DNA of 64,000 bases from Candidatus Schekmanbacteria bacterium RIFCSPLOWO2_02_FULL_38_14 (GTDB taxonomy: Bacteria > Schekmanbacteria > GWA2-38-11), in NCBI GenBank assembly GCA_001790855.1, contig MGDH01000015.1, positions 13,530-77,529 on the forward strand, given 5' to 3'. Below, in pieces: positions 1,763 to 52,376 of the stretch; position 1 is the first letter of the stretch; the number at the start of each line of letters is the position of its first letter. The position numbers and the translations under genes were made by a program. Below the pieces are notes generated by a model that saw only the letters and a program-made list of their open reading frames with translations, was not told where the DNA came from and made no database searches.

Positions 1763-3697
1763 ATGAGTCAAGTCCAGATCGCCCTTGAGGATGGCAGAAC
1801 ACACACAGTCTCATCAGGAAAATCAGTAGCAGAAATTCTTTCTTCTATTAATTCAAAATCCTTGGAAAATATCATTGCATGCAAGGTTGATGGTGCCCTT
1901 GAGGATTTAAGTTATATAGTTGACAAAAACATATCCTTAGAGACAATTTCAAAAAACTCTCAGGAAGGCCTTGAAATCCTGCGCCACAGCACTTCCCATA
2001 TAATGGCTCAGGCGGTTAAGGAACTTTACCCTGAAACCAAAGTCGCAATTGGTCCGGCAATAGAAAACGGATTCTACTACGACTTTGACAGAACTACCCC
2101 TTTCACTCCACAGGACCTTGAAAAAATAGAAAATAAAATGGAAGAAATAATCAGGTCAGGTTCTGCGTTCAAAAAAAATATATTTAAAAAAGAAAATGCA
2201 ATAAAATATTTCCAGTCAAAAGGTGAAATCTATAAGGTTGAGCTTTTGGAAGAAATTCCTCAGGGAGAGGTTACTGTTTATGAGCAGGGAAGTTTCACAG
2301 ACCTTTGCCGCGGGCCCCACATTCCTAAAACCTCATTTGTTTCCTCATTCAAACTTCTCAGTGTAGCCGGAGCCTACTGGCGGGGCAATGAAAAAAAACA
2401 GATGCTTCAGAGAATCTACGGAATATCCTTTTTTGATTCCTCAGAGCTTGAAAACTATTTAAAAAACTTAGAAGAAGCAAGAAAAAGAGACCACAGAAAG
2501 ATTGGAAAAGAGCTTGAACTCTTCAGCATTCATGATGAAATTGGGCCTGGTCTGGTTGTATATCACCCAAAAGGTGCAATGCTCAGAACAATGCTTGAAG
2601 ATTTTGAAAAAAAAGAGCACCTGAAAAGAGGATATCAGATAGTAATTGGTCCGACTCTTTTAAAATTAGACCTATGGAAACAATCAGGGCATTATGACAA
2701 CTACCGTGAGATGATGTATTTCACAGAAATAGAAGGACAAACTTACGGAATAAAACCTATGAACTGTATTTCCCATATGCTGATATACAAGAGCAAGACA
2801 AGGAGCTATCGTGACCTACCTTTAAGGTTTTTTGAACTTGGAACTGTTCACCGCCATGAAAAATCCGGTGTCCTTCATGGGTTGCTTAGAGTAAGAGGGT
2901 TCACACAGGACGATGCTCACATACTTTGTACTCCTGAACAACTTCAGGATGAAATCTCAGGAATTATTGACTTTGTTGATTATGTGATGAGAATATTTAA
3001 ATTTGAATATATATTAGAATTAAGCACAAAACCTGAAAAATCCATTGGCAGTGATGAGGATTGGAAAAGAGCTACCAATGCTCTGGTTTCTGCCCTTAAT
3101 AAAAGAGGGCTAGGATTTGAGACATGTGTTGGAGAGGGAGCATTTTATGGCCCTAAAATAGATATAAAACTTAAAGATATACTTGGAAGACTATGGCAGT
3201 GTGCAACAATCCAGTGTGATTTTGCTCTTCCTGAAAGATTTGACCTCTCCTACACAGACCACGATGGAAAACCATACAGGCCTGTAATGCTCCATCGTGT
3301 AATACTGGGTTCAATGGAAAGATTCCTTGGGATTTTAATAGAACATTTTGCTGGAGCTTTCCCAACCTGGCTTGCTCCGGTTCAGTCAAGAATATTGACA
3401 ATTACCAACAAAGTAGACCAGTATGGAGAGAAAATAAAAAGTTTGCTAATCAATGAAGGAATCCGTTGCGAATTTGATTCAAGAAATGAAAAAATTTCAT
3501 TCAAAATCAGAGAAGCACAGCTTCAGAAAATTCCTTATTTTCTTATAGTAGGAAAAAGGGAGGAAAAAGAAGAAACAGTTTCAGTAAGGCTTAGAGACGG
3601 AAGAGACTTAGGTTCTACCCCCATTTCAGAAGTAATCAGAATGATTAATAACGATATTACTTCAAAGAAACTATTACCAGGAGGTGATATAGTATAA
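1763..3697 (+). CDS. thrS: Threonyl-tRNA synthetase
   Basis: The 644-residue length is normal for bacterial ThrRS, which charges tRNA-Thr in the cytoplasm. Domains in order are an N-terminal TGS domain (about 1-62), an editing domain with HSTSH near residue 76 and 'DLCRGPHI', the class II catalytic core ('YGIKPMNC', 'RFFELGTVHRHEKSGVLHG', 'GEGAFYGPKIDI', 'VILGSMERFLGILIEHFAG'), and the C-terminal anticodon-binding domain. The ATG at 1763 lies about 20 bases after a GAGGAG run, a loose fit, but the TGS start supports it. The stop codon overlaps the start of infC, so the two are likely translationally coupled. Confidence 0.97.
   Translation: MSQVQIALEDGRTHTVSSGKSVAEILSSINSKSLENIIACKVDGALEDLSYIVDKNISLETISKNSQEGLEILRHSTSHIMAQAVKELYPETKVAIGPAIENGFYYDFDRTTPFTPQDLEKIENKMEEIIRSGSAFKKNIFKKENAIKYFQSKGEIYKVELLEEIPQGEVTVYEQGSFTDLCRGPHIPKTSFVSSFKLLSVAGAYWRGNEKKQMLQRIYGISFFDSSELENYLKNLEEARKRDHRKIGKELELFSIHDEIGPGLVVYHPKGAMLRTMLEDFEKKEHLKRGYQIVIGPTLLKLDLWKQSGHYDNYREMMYFTEIEGQTYGIKPMNCISHMLIYKSKTRSYRDLPLRFFELGTVHRHEKSGVLHGLLRVRGFTQDDAHILCTPEQLQDEISGIIDFVDYVMRIFKFEYILELSTKPEKSIGSDEDWKRATNALVSALNKRGLGFETCVGEGAFYGPKIDIKLKDILGRLWQCATIQCDFALPERFDLSYTDHDGKPYRPVMLHRVILGSMERFLGILIEHFAGAFPTWLAPVQSRILTITNKVDQYGEKIKSLLINEGIRCEFDSRNEKISFKIREAQLQKIPYFLIVGKREEKEETVSVRLRDGRDLGSTPISEVIRMINNDITSKKLLPGGDIV
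3679..3688 (+). promoter_or_regulatory. Full-length Shine-Dalgarno site of infC
   Basis: AGGAGGTGAT, inside the last codons of thrS, is a perfect 10-base complement of the usual 16S rRNA 3' tail. It lies 5 bases before ATA at 3694 and 8 before ATC at 3697. It decides where infC starts, because that frame has no ATG, GTG or TTG between its upstream stop (3685-3687) and codon 60. Confidence 0.85.
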
Positions 3698-26156: not shown

Positions 26157-26660
26157 ATGGGACATAAAGACCATAAAGAGAAAGCTAAAAATTCTGTTAA
26201 ATGCTTTATAATTACTGTAAGTGATTCAAGAACTCCTGATACAGATGAAAGCGGTAAATTTATATCAGACATTTTGAAAATAAATGGACACAATGTTATT
26301 GGCTATGTGATTTTAAAAGATGAACCAAATCTTGTCTGCGAATTTGCAAGAAATGAATCATTGGAAGTGGATGTTGAAGCTATAATAATAAATGGTGGCA
26401 CAGGCATATCTTCTAGAGATTCAACATTTGAAGCAGTTGATGCCATTTTAGAAAAACGCTTGACGGGCTTCGGAGAACTTTTTCGTTATTTAAGTTATAT
26501 AGAAATCGGTTCATCTGCCATTATGAGCAGAGCGTGTGCAGGAGTTTTGAATAAAAAGATAATAATTTCATTGCCGGGGTCAGAAAGCGCTGTAAAGCTT
26601 GCAATGAACAAATTAATCCTTCCTGAACTCTCCCATATGATATGGGAAGTGAACAGATGA
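26157..26660 (+). CDS. moaB: Molybdenum cofactor biosynthesis protein MoaB/MogA family
   Basis: The 167-residue product has the molybdopterin-binding fold signs 'FIITVSDSRTPDTDESGK', 'IIINGGTGISSRDST' and 'SRACAGVLNKKIIISLPGS'. MoaB/Mog proteins adenylate molybdopterin. The length matches MoaB rather than MoeA or a fused MogA. AAGGAG lies just before ATG 26157. No other molybdenum cofactor gene is in the window, and its stop touches the left arm of the four-helix-bundle element. Confidence 0.9.
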   Translation: MGHKDHKEKAKNSVKCFIITVSDSRTPDTDESGKFISDILKINGHNVIGYVILKDEPNLVCEFARNESLEVDVEAIIINGGTGISSRDSTFEAVDAILEKRLTGFGELFRYLSYIEIGSSAIMSRACAGVLNKKIIISLPGSESAVKLAMNKLILPELSHMIWEVNR

Positions 26661-27194
26661 TTGTTGGAATGTTGCATGTTAAAATGTTTGAATGCTTGAA
26701 TATTTAAAAGTTTAAATGTCGGCATGTTAGAAAGTCAAGAAGAAATGGGGAAAATTGAAAGATTTGAGGAAATAGAAGCATGGAAAGAAGCTTGTAGTCT
26801 AGCAGAAATAATTTATAAAATAACAAAACTTGAAAGATTTTCCAAGAACTACGGGTTAAAAGAGCAAATTCAAAGAGCATCTGTTTCAATTGCATCAAAT
26901 ATTGCTGAAGGATTTGAAAGGCAAACAAAAAAAGAATTCATTTATTTTCTTTACATTGCCAAAGGTTCAGCAGGAGAAGTAAGAACTTTACTGTATTTAG
27001 GTAGGAAACTTAATTATTTTGATGAAAGCCAATATAATGAAGTCTTGCAAAAATGCATTTACGTATCAAATCTGATTGGTAAATTTATTCAATACTTAAA
27101 AAAATACTCCAACACATAACATGCCAACATTCCAACATTCAAACTTTGTAACATTTTAACATGCTAACTTTAGAACATTCTAACATTTCAACAT
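26661..27194. mobile_element. IVS-like element: four-helix-bundle gene between inverted word arrays
   Basis: About 70 bases on the left (26661-26731) and 80 on the right (27115-27194) are made of degenerate 8-9 nt words (AATGTT(T/G)GA on the left, its complement AACATTCCA on the right) and are inverted copies of each other; GCATGTTAAAATGTT occurs on the left and its complement on the right. Between them lies a four-helix-bundle gene, the type found in 23S rRNA intervening sequences. The element sits exactly between the moaB stop and the MFS start. Confidence 0.65.
26745..27119 (+). CDS. Four-helix-bundle protein (23S rRNA IVS-encoded/S23 family)
   Basis: This 124-residue, mostly helical protein has the family pattern 'IEAWKEACSLAEIIYKIT', 'YGLKEQIQRASVSIASNIAEG' and 'FLYIAKGSAGEVRTLLYLG'. 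The first-described relatives are encoded in intervening sequences of 23S rRNA genes and form pentamers; their function is not settled. Here it lies free in the chromosome inside inverted arrays. The start at 26745 matches the usual family start; 26724 would add seven residues made partly of array sequence. Confidence 0.88.
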   Translation: MGKIERFEEIEAWKEACSLAEIIYKITKLERFSKNYGLKEQIQRASVSIASNIAEGFERQTKKEFIYFLYIAKGSAGEVRTLLYLGRKLNYFDESQYNEVLQKCIYVSNLIGKFIQYLKKYSNT

Positions 27195-28365
27195 GGCATC
27201 ATTAAAACTGGATAAAGGTCTACTCCCAATATTGCTAACAGTTCTTCTCATGGGATTTGGAATGAGCTTTGTTACTCCACTTATTCCTTTGATTATAAAA
27301 AATACCGGTTCATCTCTCGCAAGTATAGGACAAATAGGCGCAACATATTTTCTGTTTTTTACTATTTTAACCCCCTTCTGTGGGAAAAAAGTTGATAAGA
27401 TAGGCTCAAAAAAAATTATGTTTATTGGATTATTATCCTATGCTGTAAGTATAATGTTTGTACCATATGTAAAGACTGTTAATGCTTTTTACATTATCCG
27501 TGCTTTGCATGGTATAAGCACAGCATCCCTTTTTGTTGCCACAGAATCTGCCATAAACATACTTTCCTCTCCTGAGAATAGGGCAAAAAATACCAGTTAT
27601 TATGCTTTGGTATTCGGACTTGGATTTGCCGGGGGCCCGGCTATTGGTGCAACACTCTATTCAATCAATATATATCTCCCATTCTTTTTATGTTCCACCT
27701 CATTCATTTTGGCAGCATTAATAAATTTACTCTATTTTAAGGATACAAAAATTGAAGTGCAGAGCAAGATATATAGCTTCAAAGATTTTCTCAATGCACT
27801 AAAAATTCCAATTGCTGCAGCAATGTGTTATGCTTTTGTAGAAGTCTGCATAGGAGTATTTCTCTCTTTGTATTTGGACTCAATGAACATAAAAGGAACA
27901 TATTTGGGTATAGTATTCACAGTCTTTGCCATTGGAGCAATGGTTTCTCCAATCCCTTCCGGAAGGTTTGCAGATAGATTTGGAAAATTTCCCACCATAT
28001 ATATCTTCTCATTTTTACTGGCTGTAACAATTTTTTTATTTAACGTTTTAAATGGTTTTGTTTCTATAATCTTACTTATCTCAGGGGTTGGTTTTATCGC
28101 AGGAGGACTTTACCCTGTTGCTCTTGCATTAATTGCTGACCTCATTCCAAAGAATAAGATTGGTGCGGCAAACTCCGCTTTTTCTTTTTCTTATGGTTTA
28201 GGTAGTATAATTGGTCCGTTAGTTACCGGAAGGTTTATTGATTATTACGGCATAAAATATCTTTTTTATCCAATGAGCTTTGTAGCCTTTATTTTTTTTA
28301 TTATTTCAGTTTTTGATGCACTTAAGAAACCAAGATTATCAAAAATCAGTCAACGAGCTAATTAA
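27193..28365 (+). CDS. Major facilitator superfamily transporter
   Basis: The 390-residue protein has about 12 hydrophobic segments and a loop 'GKKVDKIGSKKIMFIG' after TM2, the MFS A-motif equivalent, repeated as 'GRFADRFGKFPTIY' in the second half. 'RALHGISTASLF' and 'GLGFAGGPAIGATLY' fit drug:proton antiporter-type exporters. The substrate is unknown. Its ATG is formed by the last word of the upstream array (CAACATGG), with no ribosome site, so the element may have replaced the native leader. Confidence 0.87.
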   Translation: MASLKLDKGLLPILLTVLLMGFGMSFVTPLIPLIIKNTGSSLASIGQIGATYFLFFTILTPFCGKKVDKIGSKKIMFIGLLSYAVSIMFVPYVKTVNAFYIIRALHGISTASLFVATESAINILSSPENRAKNTSYYALVFGLGFAGGPAIGATLYSINIYLPFFLCSTSFILAALINLLYFKDTKIEVQSKIYSFKDFLNALKIPIAAAMCYAFVEVCIGVFLSLYLDSMNIKGTYLGIVFTVFAIGAMVSPIPSGRFADRFGKFPTIYIFSFLLAVTIFLFNVLNGFVSIILLISGVGFIAGGLYPVALALIADLIPKNKIGAANSAFSFSYGLGSIIGPLVTGRFIDYYGIKYLFYPMSFVAFIFFIISVFDALKKPRLSKISQRAN

Positions 28366-39257: not shown

Positions 39258-39452
39258 GTTTAAAAAGGGTTCTAGGATTCGAGGGGTCAAGGGTTTATTT
39301 TCTACCGTATTTCTCCTCTTTTGGAAAATCTTTTGTTATTCTATAAATATCTAAACATATCTGATAGGACTTCTGCCAGACCTTTAATTCTTTATAATTC
39401 TTCAGCATTTCACTCGACCCCTTGAATCCTCGAACCCTCGAATCCTAAATTT
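39258..39452. repeat. Inverted word array filling the ridA-nnr junction
   Basis: The left arm (39263-39297) reads GGGTTCTAGGATTCGAGGGG and onward. The right arm (39411-39452) reads CTCGACCCCTTGAATCCTCG and onward, its degenerate inverse. Both arms are built of 8-9 nt variants of TTGAACCCT/TCGACCCCT. The core between them is about 113 bases with no gene. The element lies between the ridA stop and the nnr ribosome site. Confidence 0.75.
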
Positions 39453-52175: not shown

Positions 52176-52376
52176 ATCTACTTTTCACTATTCACTTCAC
52201 TGATTCCGAATCCATCACTCCCAACGATTCCTGACCCATCACTTCCAACTTGTTCAGAAACAGCAATTTCACAGCCATCAGCCTTTTAAGTAGACTTTAA
52301 CAGATTTTGATGATATAAGAAAACTAATTTTTAAATTTAATCTGTGTAATCAAATAATAATTTTCAGGAGAAACTA

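Follow-up and report, generated by a model that had tools for sequence, protein, structure and literature searches.

Why does a free-standing gene of the S23/IVP family lie between two protein genes, enclosed by inverted arrays of a short word, and do gene and arrays together form a mobile element? The locus lies within the window, that is, the whole 64-kb stretch of DNA analysed, and comprises the following features.

26157 to 26660, + strand: moaB-like gene, the 5' flank, with its stop codon at 26658-26660; it ends earlier than in order-mates
26661 to 27192: focal element, ~530 bases, an S23/IVP gene enclosed by inverted 8-nt word arrays
about 26661 to 26735, + strand: left arm, an inverted array of an 8-nt word of the ATGTTNNA type; the detected array spans 26676-26719
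26724 to 27119, + strand: S23/IVP four-helix-bundle gene encoding 131 aa, with an alternative start at 26745, matching PF05635 and TIGR02436
27117 to 27194, + strand: right arm, an array of the complementary word AACATTNN with period 8
27193 to 28365, + strand: MFS transporter gene, the 3' flank, with N-terminus MASLKLDKG (MKLDKG at the empty site)

The two arms are inverted copies of each other, with 60 nt at 72% complementarity and a 17-nt core at 94%, and the right arm keeps period 8 exactly through ten registers; the word of this S23 family is AACATTCN. Only three arrays in the 64-kb window exceeded the threshold, two of them being the focal arms, and both arms lie far above the window background. 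The arrays also reach into the coding sequences. The S23 ATG at 26724 falls within the left-arm words, 26745 being the second candidate ATG, while the MFS ATG at 27193 lies within the last right-arm word, which supplies the MFS start codon. An initial annotation of this DNA had described a four-helix-bundle gene inside inverted word arrays that fits exactly between the moaB stop and the MFS ATG, with the MFS start made by the right arm; the profile matches, the complementarity of the arms, the regular right arm and the positions of both codons bear out each of these points.

In two order-mates of the host (G002 and G003), moaB and the start of the orthologous MFS gene overlap, leaving no intervening sequence. 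These empty sites come from genomes without an S23 gene whose moaB is 61-64% identical to the focal one. The comparison indicates that the focal element was inserted at the moaB-MFS overlap, re-creating a moaB stop and an MFS start. The case for mobility had been made to depend on the existence of empty sites and on arms conserved as inverted copies; empty sites do exist, and the arms are kept as inverted copies across S23 elements generally.

The S23 gene is the sole gene of the focal element, in which a profile search disclosed no transposase family match. Its product scores 121.2 bits with PF05635 (cut-off 33.8), its only Pfam match, and 120.4 bits with TIGR02436 (cut-off 24). The AlphaFold2 model, predicted from an alignment of window and genome loci only, is a four-helix bundle with a mean pLDDT of 93.5. 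Foldseek matched this model with 2GSC (TM 0.90-0.93), 2RLD (0.81-0.88), and the diversity-generating retroelement (DGR) protein Avd (4DWL, 0.81-0.85); the crystal entries 2GSC and 2RLD hold five chains each. The invariant residues of S23 are Q, S, N, E, G, S, and E around NIAEG. They include no HUH motif and, to our knowledge, match no nuclease signature.

A set of 90 non-redundant S23 genes from many lineages was surveyed by comparing each left arm with the reverse complement of the right arm (best local match score of at least 18). Matching inverted arms flanked 60 of the 90 genes. The rate was 1.9% in a mispaired-arm null, and of 128 ordinary ORFs taken from genomes with S23, 4 had such arms (OR 62, p=6e-26); in about one third of S23 genes matching arms were weak or undetectable. 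Terminal inverted repeats, as in an insertion sequence or MITE, are thus found across S23 elements. Periodic arrays above the 99% shuffle level occurred in 67 of 90 left arms and 68 of 90 right arms but inside only 1 of 90 S23 genes. The period of the left arrays was 7 in 47 cases, 8 in 15, and 9 in 3, and the G-rich strand pointed inward in 61 of the 66 left arrays with a defined skew (61:5). The general element spans ~0.45-0.55 kb and consists of an inverted array of a 7-9 nt word, the S23 gene, and the reverse-complement array, each element having its own word. The arms are exact or near-exact inverted copies in L033 (~35 nt) and L111 (~60-70 nt), and the word-order register between arms is significant in only 7 of 40 elements, the focal one (p=0.415) not being among them; it is thus only in a subset of elements, presumably young ones, that the arms are clearly copies of each other. 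Non-coding arrays of 7-9 nt words numbered 30 per 400 kb in S23-bearing genomes versus 5 per 400 kb in S23-less ones (p=0.0014).

The focal genome itself (G000) holds five near-full-length S23 genes, one of them with an internal stop, and one truncated gene, each bracketed by inverted arrays of a different word. Two further features of the window concern us here.

39267 to 39446, - strand: second, decayed element, with inverted arrays of the GGGTTCGA type around a truncated S23 remnant at ~39298-39393
52183 to 52196, - strand: solo arm carrying AGTGAAT, the word of the L001 element

The AACATT word of the focal element recurs in its own genome at two solo places, as a single arm only. The word AGTGAAT is carried by only one S23 gene of this genome, L001, yet three copies of it (at most 3 mismatches) were found 37 times, at ~22 places, compared with 2 times for the reversed control and 0 and 1 times in the S23-less order-mates; whole-genome counts of this kind use short patterns with mismatches and include a few chance matches. 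For the pattern GTGANNN the reversed control was uninformative, and the AGTGAAT triple count was used instead. At least 8 of 20 inspected AGTGAAT places are palindromes of a G-arm and a C-arm with a short centre. An early idea on the orientation of solo arrays relative to genes was dropped; such a palindrome is symmetric, so that its arms give no direction and the orientation is unreadable from them. Gene-less units with the word of an S23 element exist in many copies. The solo arm at 52183-52196 directly follows a GC-rich repeat, CCTGCCTACCGCAGGCAGGC, which also adjoins the solo array L233. Another solo word array, L231 (G000:C20, ~3606-3640), lies in frame within an ORF resembling a glycosyltransferase and adds, for example, YYSLFTVYCSL. 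The L001 element and L045 of genome G001 are flanked by the same two genes (74-81% identical), while their S23 proteins are 41% identical and their words differ, with period 7 versus 8. Different elements at one junction imply that either an independent insertion or a replacement occurred there.

Filled and empty sites were also compared in a conserved operon of Nostoc plasmids. One junction of this operon carries an S23 element in L138, L139, and L206, and the neighbouring junction carries a different one in L137; each is empty where the other is filled, and L197-L199 provide further empty sites. At the first junction the unit begins and ends with arrays: the empty allele reads TTCTAGGTTATGC and the filled one TTCTA/AATCAGGAGTCAG ... 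CTTCTGGATTCT/AGTTATGC, slashes marking the boundaries. At the second junction, the empty allele also lacks ~40 bases past the right array. The arrays form the termini of the inserted unit. The Nostoc pairs allow a target-site duplication of 0 to ~5 nt, none of them clear, and the notion that the word is copied from the target site was rejected, no such copy being seen at the Nostoc empty sites. One Nostoc S23 family has the word AGTCAGG. The S23 gene of L206 is interrupted by a nested gene-less element that has the word of the L206 element, L205 is a two-armed gene-less element between two other genes, and L203 and L204 are decayed relics. In named plasmids, S23 elements occupy the nrdB-nrdA and cas6-cas4 junctions. 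The nrdB-nrdA pair L141/L196 yielded no base-level boundary, and the cas6-cas4 junction of Dolichospermum UHCC 0315A (L195) was rejected as an empty site for the other. Another insertion, palindromic in form (GTTGGGTT...AACCCAAC), sits there, at the junction occupied by an S23 element in Anabaena sp. 90. The cas6-cas4 junction of this type I-D CRISPR operon is a shared insertion spot.

Comparison of 87 elements revealed that similarity between S23 proteins goes with similarity between words (Mantel r=0.095, p<=0.0015). This correlation resides mainly in the 16 closest S23 pairs (normalised bit score of at least 0.6, ~57-70% identity), 62% of which have a word in common, compared with a background of 2-4%. 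S23 proteins that are at least ~57-60% identical often share words even across unrelated genomes, as with ACAGGTTACAGGG of G019 and ACAGGTGACAGGG of an Anabaena sp. 90 plasmid, or TTAGCTATTAGC in G057 and TTAGCTGTTAGC in Calothrix. The S23 protein therefore probably recognises its own word, although joint descent of linked parts could also produce the link. The earlier interpretation as a mobile element stands, but it was too narrow: the word varies by element and tracks the S23 protein, and gene-less places with the same word outnumber gene-bearing ones.

In RAYT/REPIN systems, one small gene has inverted short repeats on both sides, gene-less inverted pairs of the repeat are numerous in the genome, and each protein family has its own type of repeat; RAYT itself, a Tyr-HUH transposase, acts on REP hairpins. 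S23 elements resemble these systems in having a protein with its own repeat, flanking inverted repeats, and dispersed gene-less pairs (the L001 word and Nostoc). They differ in their protein, S23 being a four-helix bundle that lacks a Tyr-HUH signature, and in their ends, which are tandem word arrays. The RAYT/REPIN-like anatomy led us to propose word binding and mobilisation in trans by S23. We consider it probable that S23 elements form a class of mobile element with S23 as its only protein, a likely recognition factor for its own word, and with gene-less derivatives that spread in trans; mobile-element status as such is well supported by the sequence comparisons. An oligomeric S23 would bind its word at multiple sites per end and could draw the two ends of an element together, thereby mobilising its own copy and perhaps, in the manner of RAYT on REPINs, gene-less copies in trans. 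S23 may be expressed by read-through transcription of the host operon. An insertion within an operon might be made tolerable by arm pairing, possibly combined with RNase III cutting of the kind seen in the 23S rRNA intervening sequence (IVS).

In a rival, RNA-level account, the arms are kept as a long transcript stem cut by RNase III, as in the 23S rRNA IVS, S23 binds RNA, and the element spreads through RNA. We regard this as possible but doubtful. When the transcript of the focal unit was folded, as the initial annotation had proposed, the arms were paired in the predicted structure (MFE -120 kcal/mol, z -3.56), in agreement with such a stem. S23 genes between co-directional genes are sense to the operon in 55 cases and antisense in 1 (p=1.6e-15), and the upstream gene is in the sense orientation in 75 of 84 cases; this bias would suit an RNA element, but it would be just as expected for a gene that relies on read-through transcription. 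A rule of tRNA-gene targeting, suggested by early loci, was rejected, only ~8 of ~90 scanned loci holding a tRNA. Mismatches between arms show a slight excess of G.U-compatible over A.C types (100:73, p=0.048), which is marginal and, counted by element, inconsistent (26:23), so that evidence for selection of the arms for RNA pairing is weak. Avd, the fold relative of S23, works in a reverse-transcriptase RNP, and reverse transcriptase is more frequent in S23-bearing than in S23-less genomes (42 of 117 versus 67 of 269, OR 1.7, p=0.036). Against this, no reverse transcriptase (RVT_1) candidate was detected in the focal genome or in 75 of the 117 S23-bearing genomes. A requirement for this enzyme was accordingly rejected, and an RNA route via a resident reverse transcriptase is disfavoured. 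Where the initial annotation had left open an RNA-level or DNA-level element, a free-standing mobile element is upheld by the empty sites and the relatives, and the former of these routes loses ground in its resident-reverse-transcriptase form.

Could S23 instead be a host regulator or toxin-antitoxin-like gene, its arrays being autoregulatory operator sites and not transposon ends? Arrays of multiple sites do resemble operator or iteron arrays, and the five chains in each S23 crystal entry would be in keeping with a regulator; the arrays, however, stand on both sides as inverted copies that coincide with the insertion ends, and gene-less copies occur at unrelated places, even within an S23 gene. 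We therefore judge this reading unlikely. Less likely still is a scenario in which S23 genes merely insert into repeats that the host already had, whether regulator sites or products of slippage: single arms and gene-less arrays are common, and passages on Geobacter read such arrays as regulator sites (PMC2700814), but orthologous empty sites have no array, S23-less order-mates have essentially no such arrays (0 and 1 matches), the word follows the S23 protein across hosts, and arms may be exact or near-exact inverted copies, as in L033 and L111.

The preferred reading, a mobile element with S23 as its recognition factor, was compared with known systems. The 23S rRNA IVS with an S23 ORF, for example that of Coxiella, shares the protein family and has an ORF between complementary terminal arms able to form one long stem; it is regarded as a selfish element whose carriage is eased by RNase III cutting (PMC4990558). 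An IVS sits in a 23S rRNA helix, whereas the focal element lies between the protein genes moaB and MFS, and its ends, unlike those of an IVS, are built from arrays of a 7-9 nt word that is specific to the family, and gene-less derivatives occur dispersed. The label IVS-like is thus apt for the protein family and the pairing arms, and not for the location or the kind of end. A classical insertion sequence has terminal inverted repeats in common with the S23 element, from which an encoded transposase is absent. Avd has the same fold as S23 and was published as resembling PF05635 (PMC10053308). It works with a reverse transcriptase and template/variable repeats; no reverse transcriptase was detected in the focal genome, and the focal element does not fit a DGR. 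Each known kind of mobile element tested has a defining feature absent here, and as judged against the open-access literature the S23 element is apparently an undescribed, new kind of mobile DNA.

Short-word arrays have appeared before. The cyanobacterial STRR (attributed to Mazel, 1990) are said to be arrays of this type that were left unexplained. In the relevant passages, GGGAATC-type repeats of Xanthomonas and Nostoc are described without explanation and generally without association to mobile elements, X. campestris having 186 GGGAATC arrays and 70 close inverted pairs (PMC4692102); paired octa- and heptanucleotide sites of Geobacter metallireducens are read as regulator sites (PMC2700814); and for the TAACTGA repeat of Beggiatoaceae a repeat-binding mobile protein was floated (PMC4679880). 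As far as these passages go, the arrays resemble ours in having 7-8 nt words in short, mostly intergenic arrays, with close inverted pairs frequent in Xanthomonas and Geobacter. The same passages (PMC4692102, PMC2700814, PMC4679880) make no link to S23, and no link of S23 genes to word arrays was found in the open-access literature, subscription papers and preprints being outside the scope of the search. The solved structure 2GSC comes from X. campestris (gene XCC0516), and L213, an S23 gene 56% identical to it, has a left array of GGGATTA/GGGAATA; a link between S23 and the Xanthomonas arrays is therefore directly testable.

Matches to PF05635 with E<=1e-20 occur in 117 of the 386 genomes sampled. 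We lean towards the broader proposal that the class is present in ~30% of sampled bacterial species, that a transposase-less four-helix bundle reads a family-specific 7-9 nt word, that both S23 elements and the dispersed heptamer/octamer arrays of cyanobacteria, Xanthomonas, Geobacter, and Beggiatoaceae stem from this source, and that its specificity diversifies like a recognition code. The reported 'heptamer repeats' may thus be explained by S23 elements. If true, this would give a biological role to the orphan S23/'four helix bundle' family, connect the rRNA IVS and the DGR protein Avd with a wider lineage of mobile elements, and suggest a single, testable origin for several short-word array families that lack an explanation. 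A mechanistic question follows as well: how does an element lacking any recognisable catalytic protein move, and how does its word specificity change along with its S23 protein?

Among other matches to the family, L042-L044 and similar ones are open frames of greater length (195-292 aa) whose IVP-like domains are weak and which have no obvious word arrays; these may be domesticated or unrelated four-helix domains. Genome G011 has ~19 short IVP-like matches, many in divergent pairs; its locus L041 shows inverted copies around a short hairpin but no array of words, and represents another type of element or repeat. In the single-contig genome G263, two S23 copies (L095 and L096, on G263:C1) are 95% identical, both have a stop codon inside the S23 match, and both adjoin longer tandem repeats.
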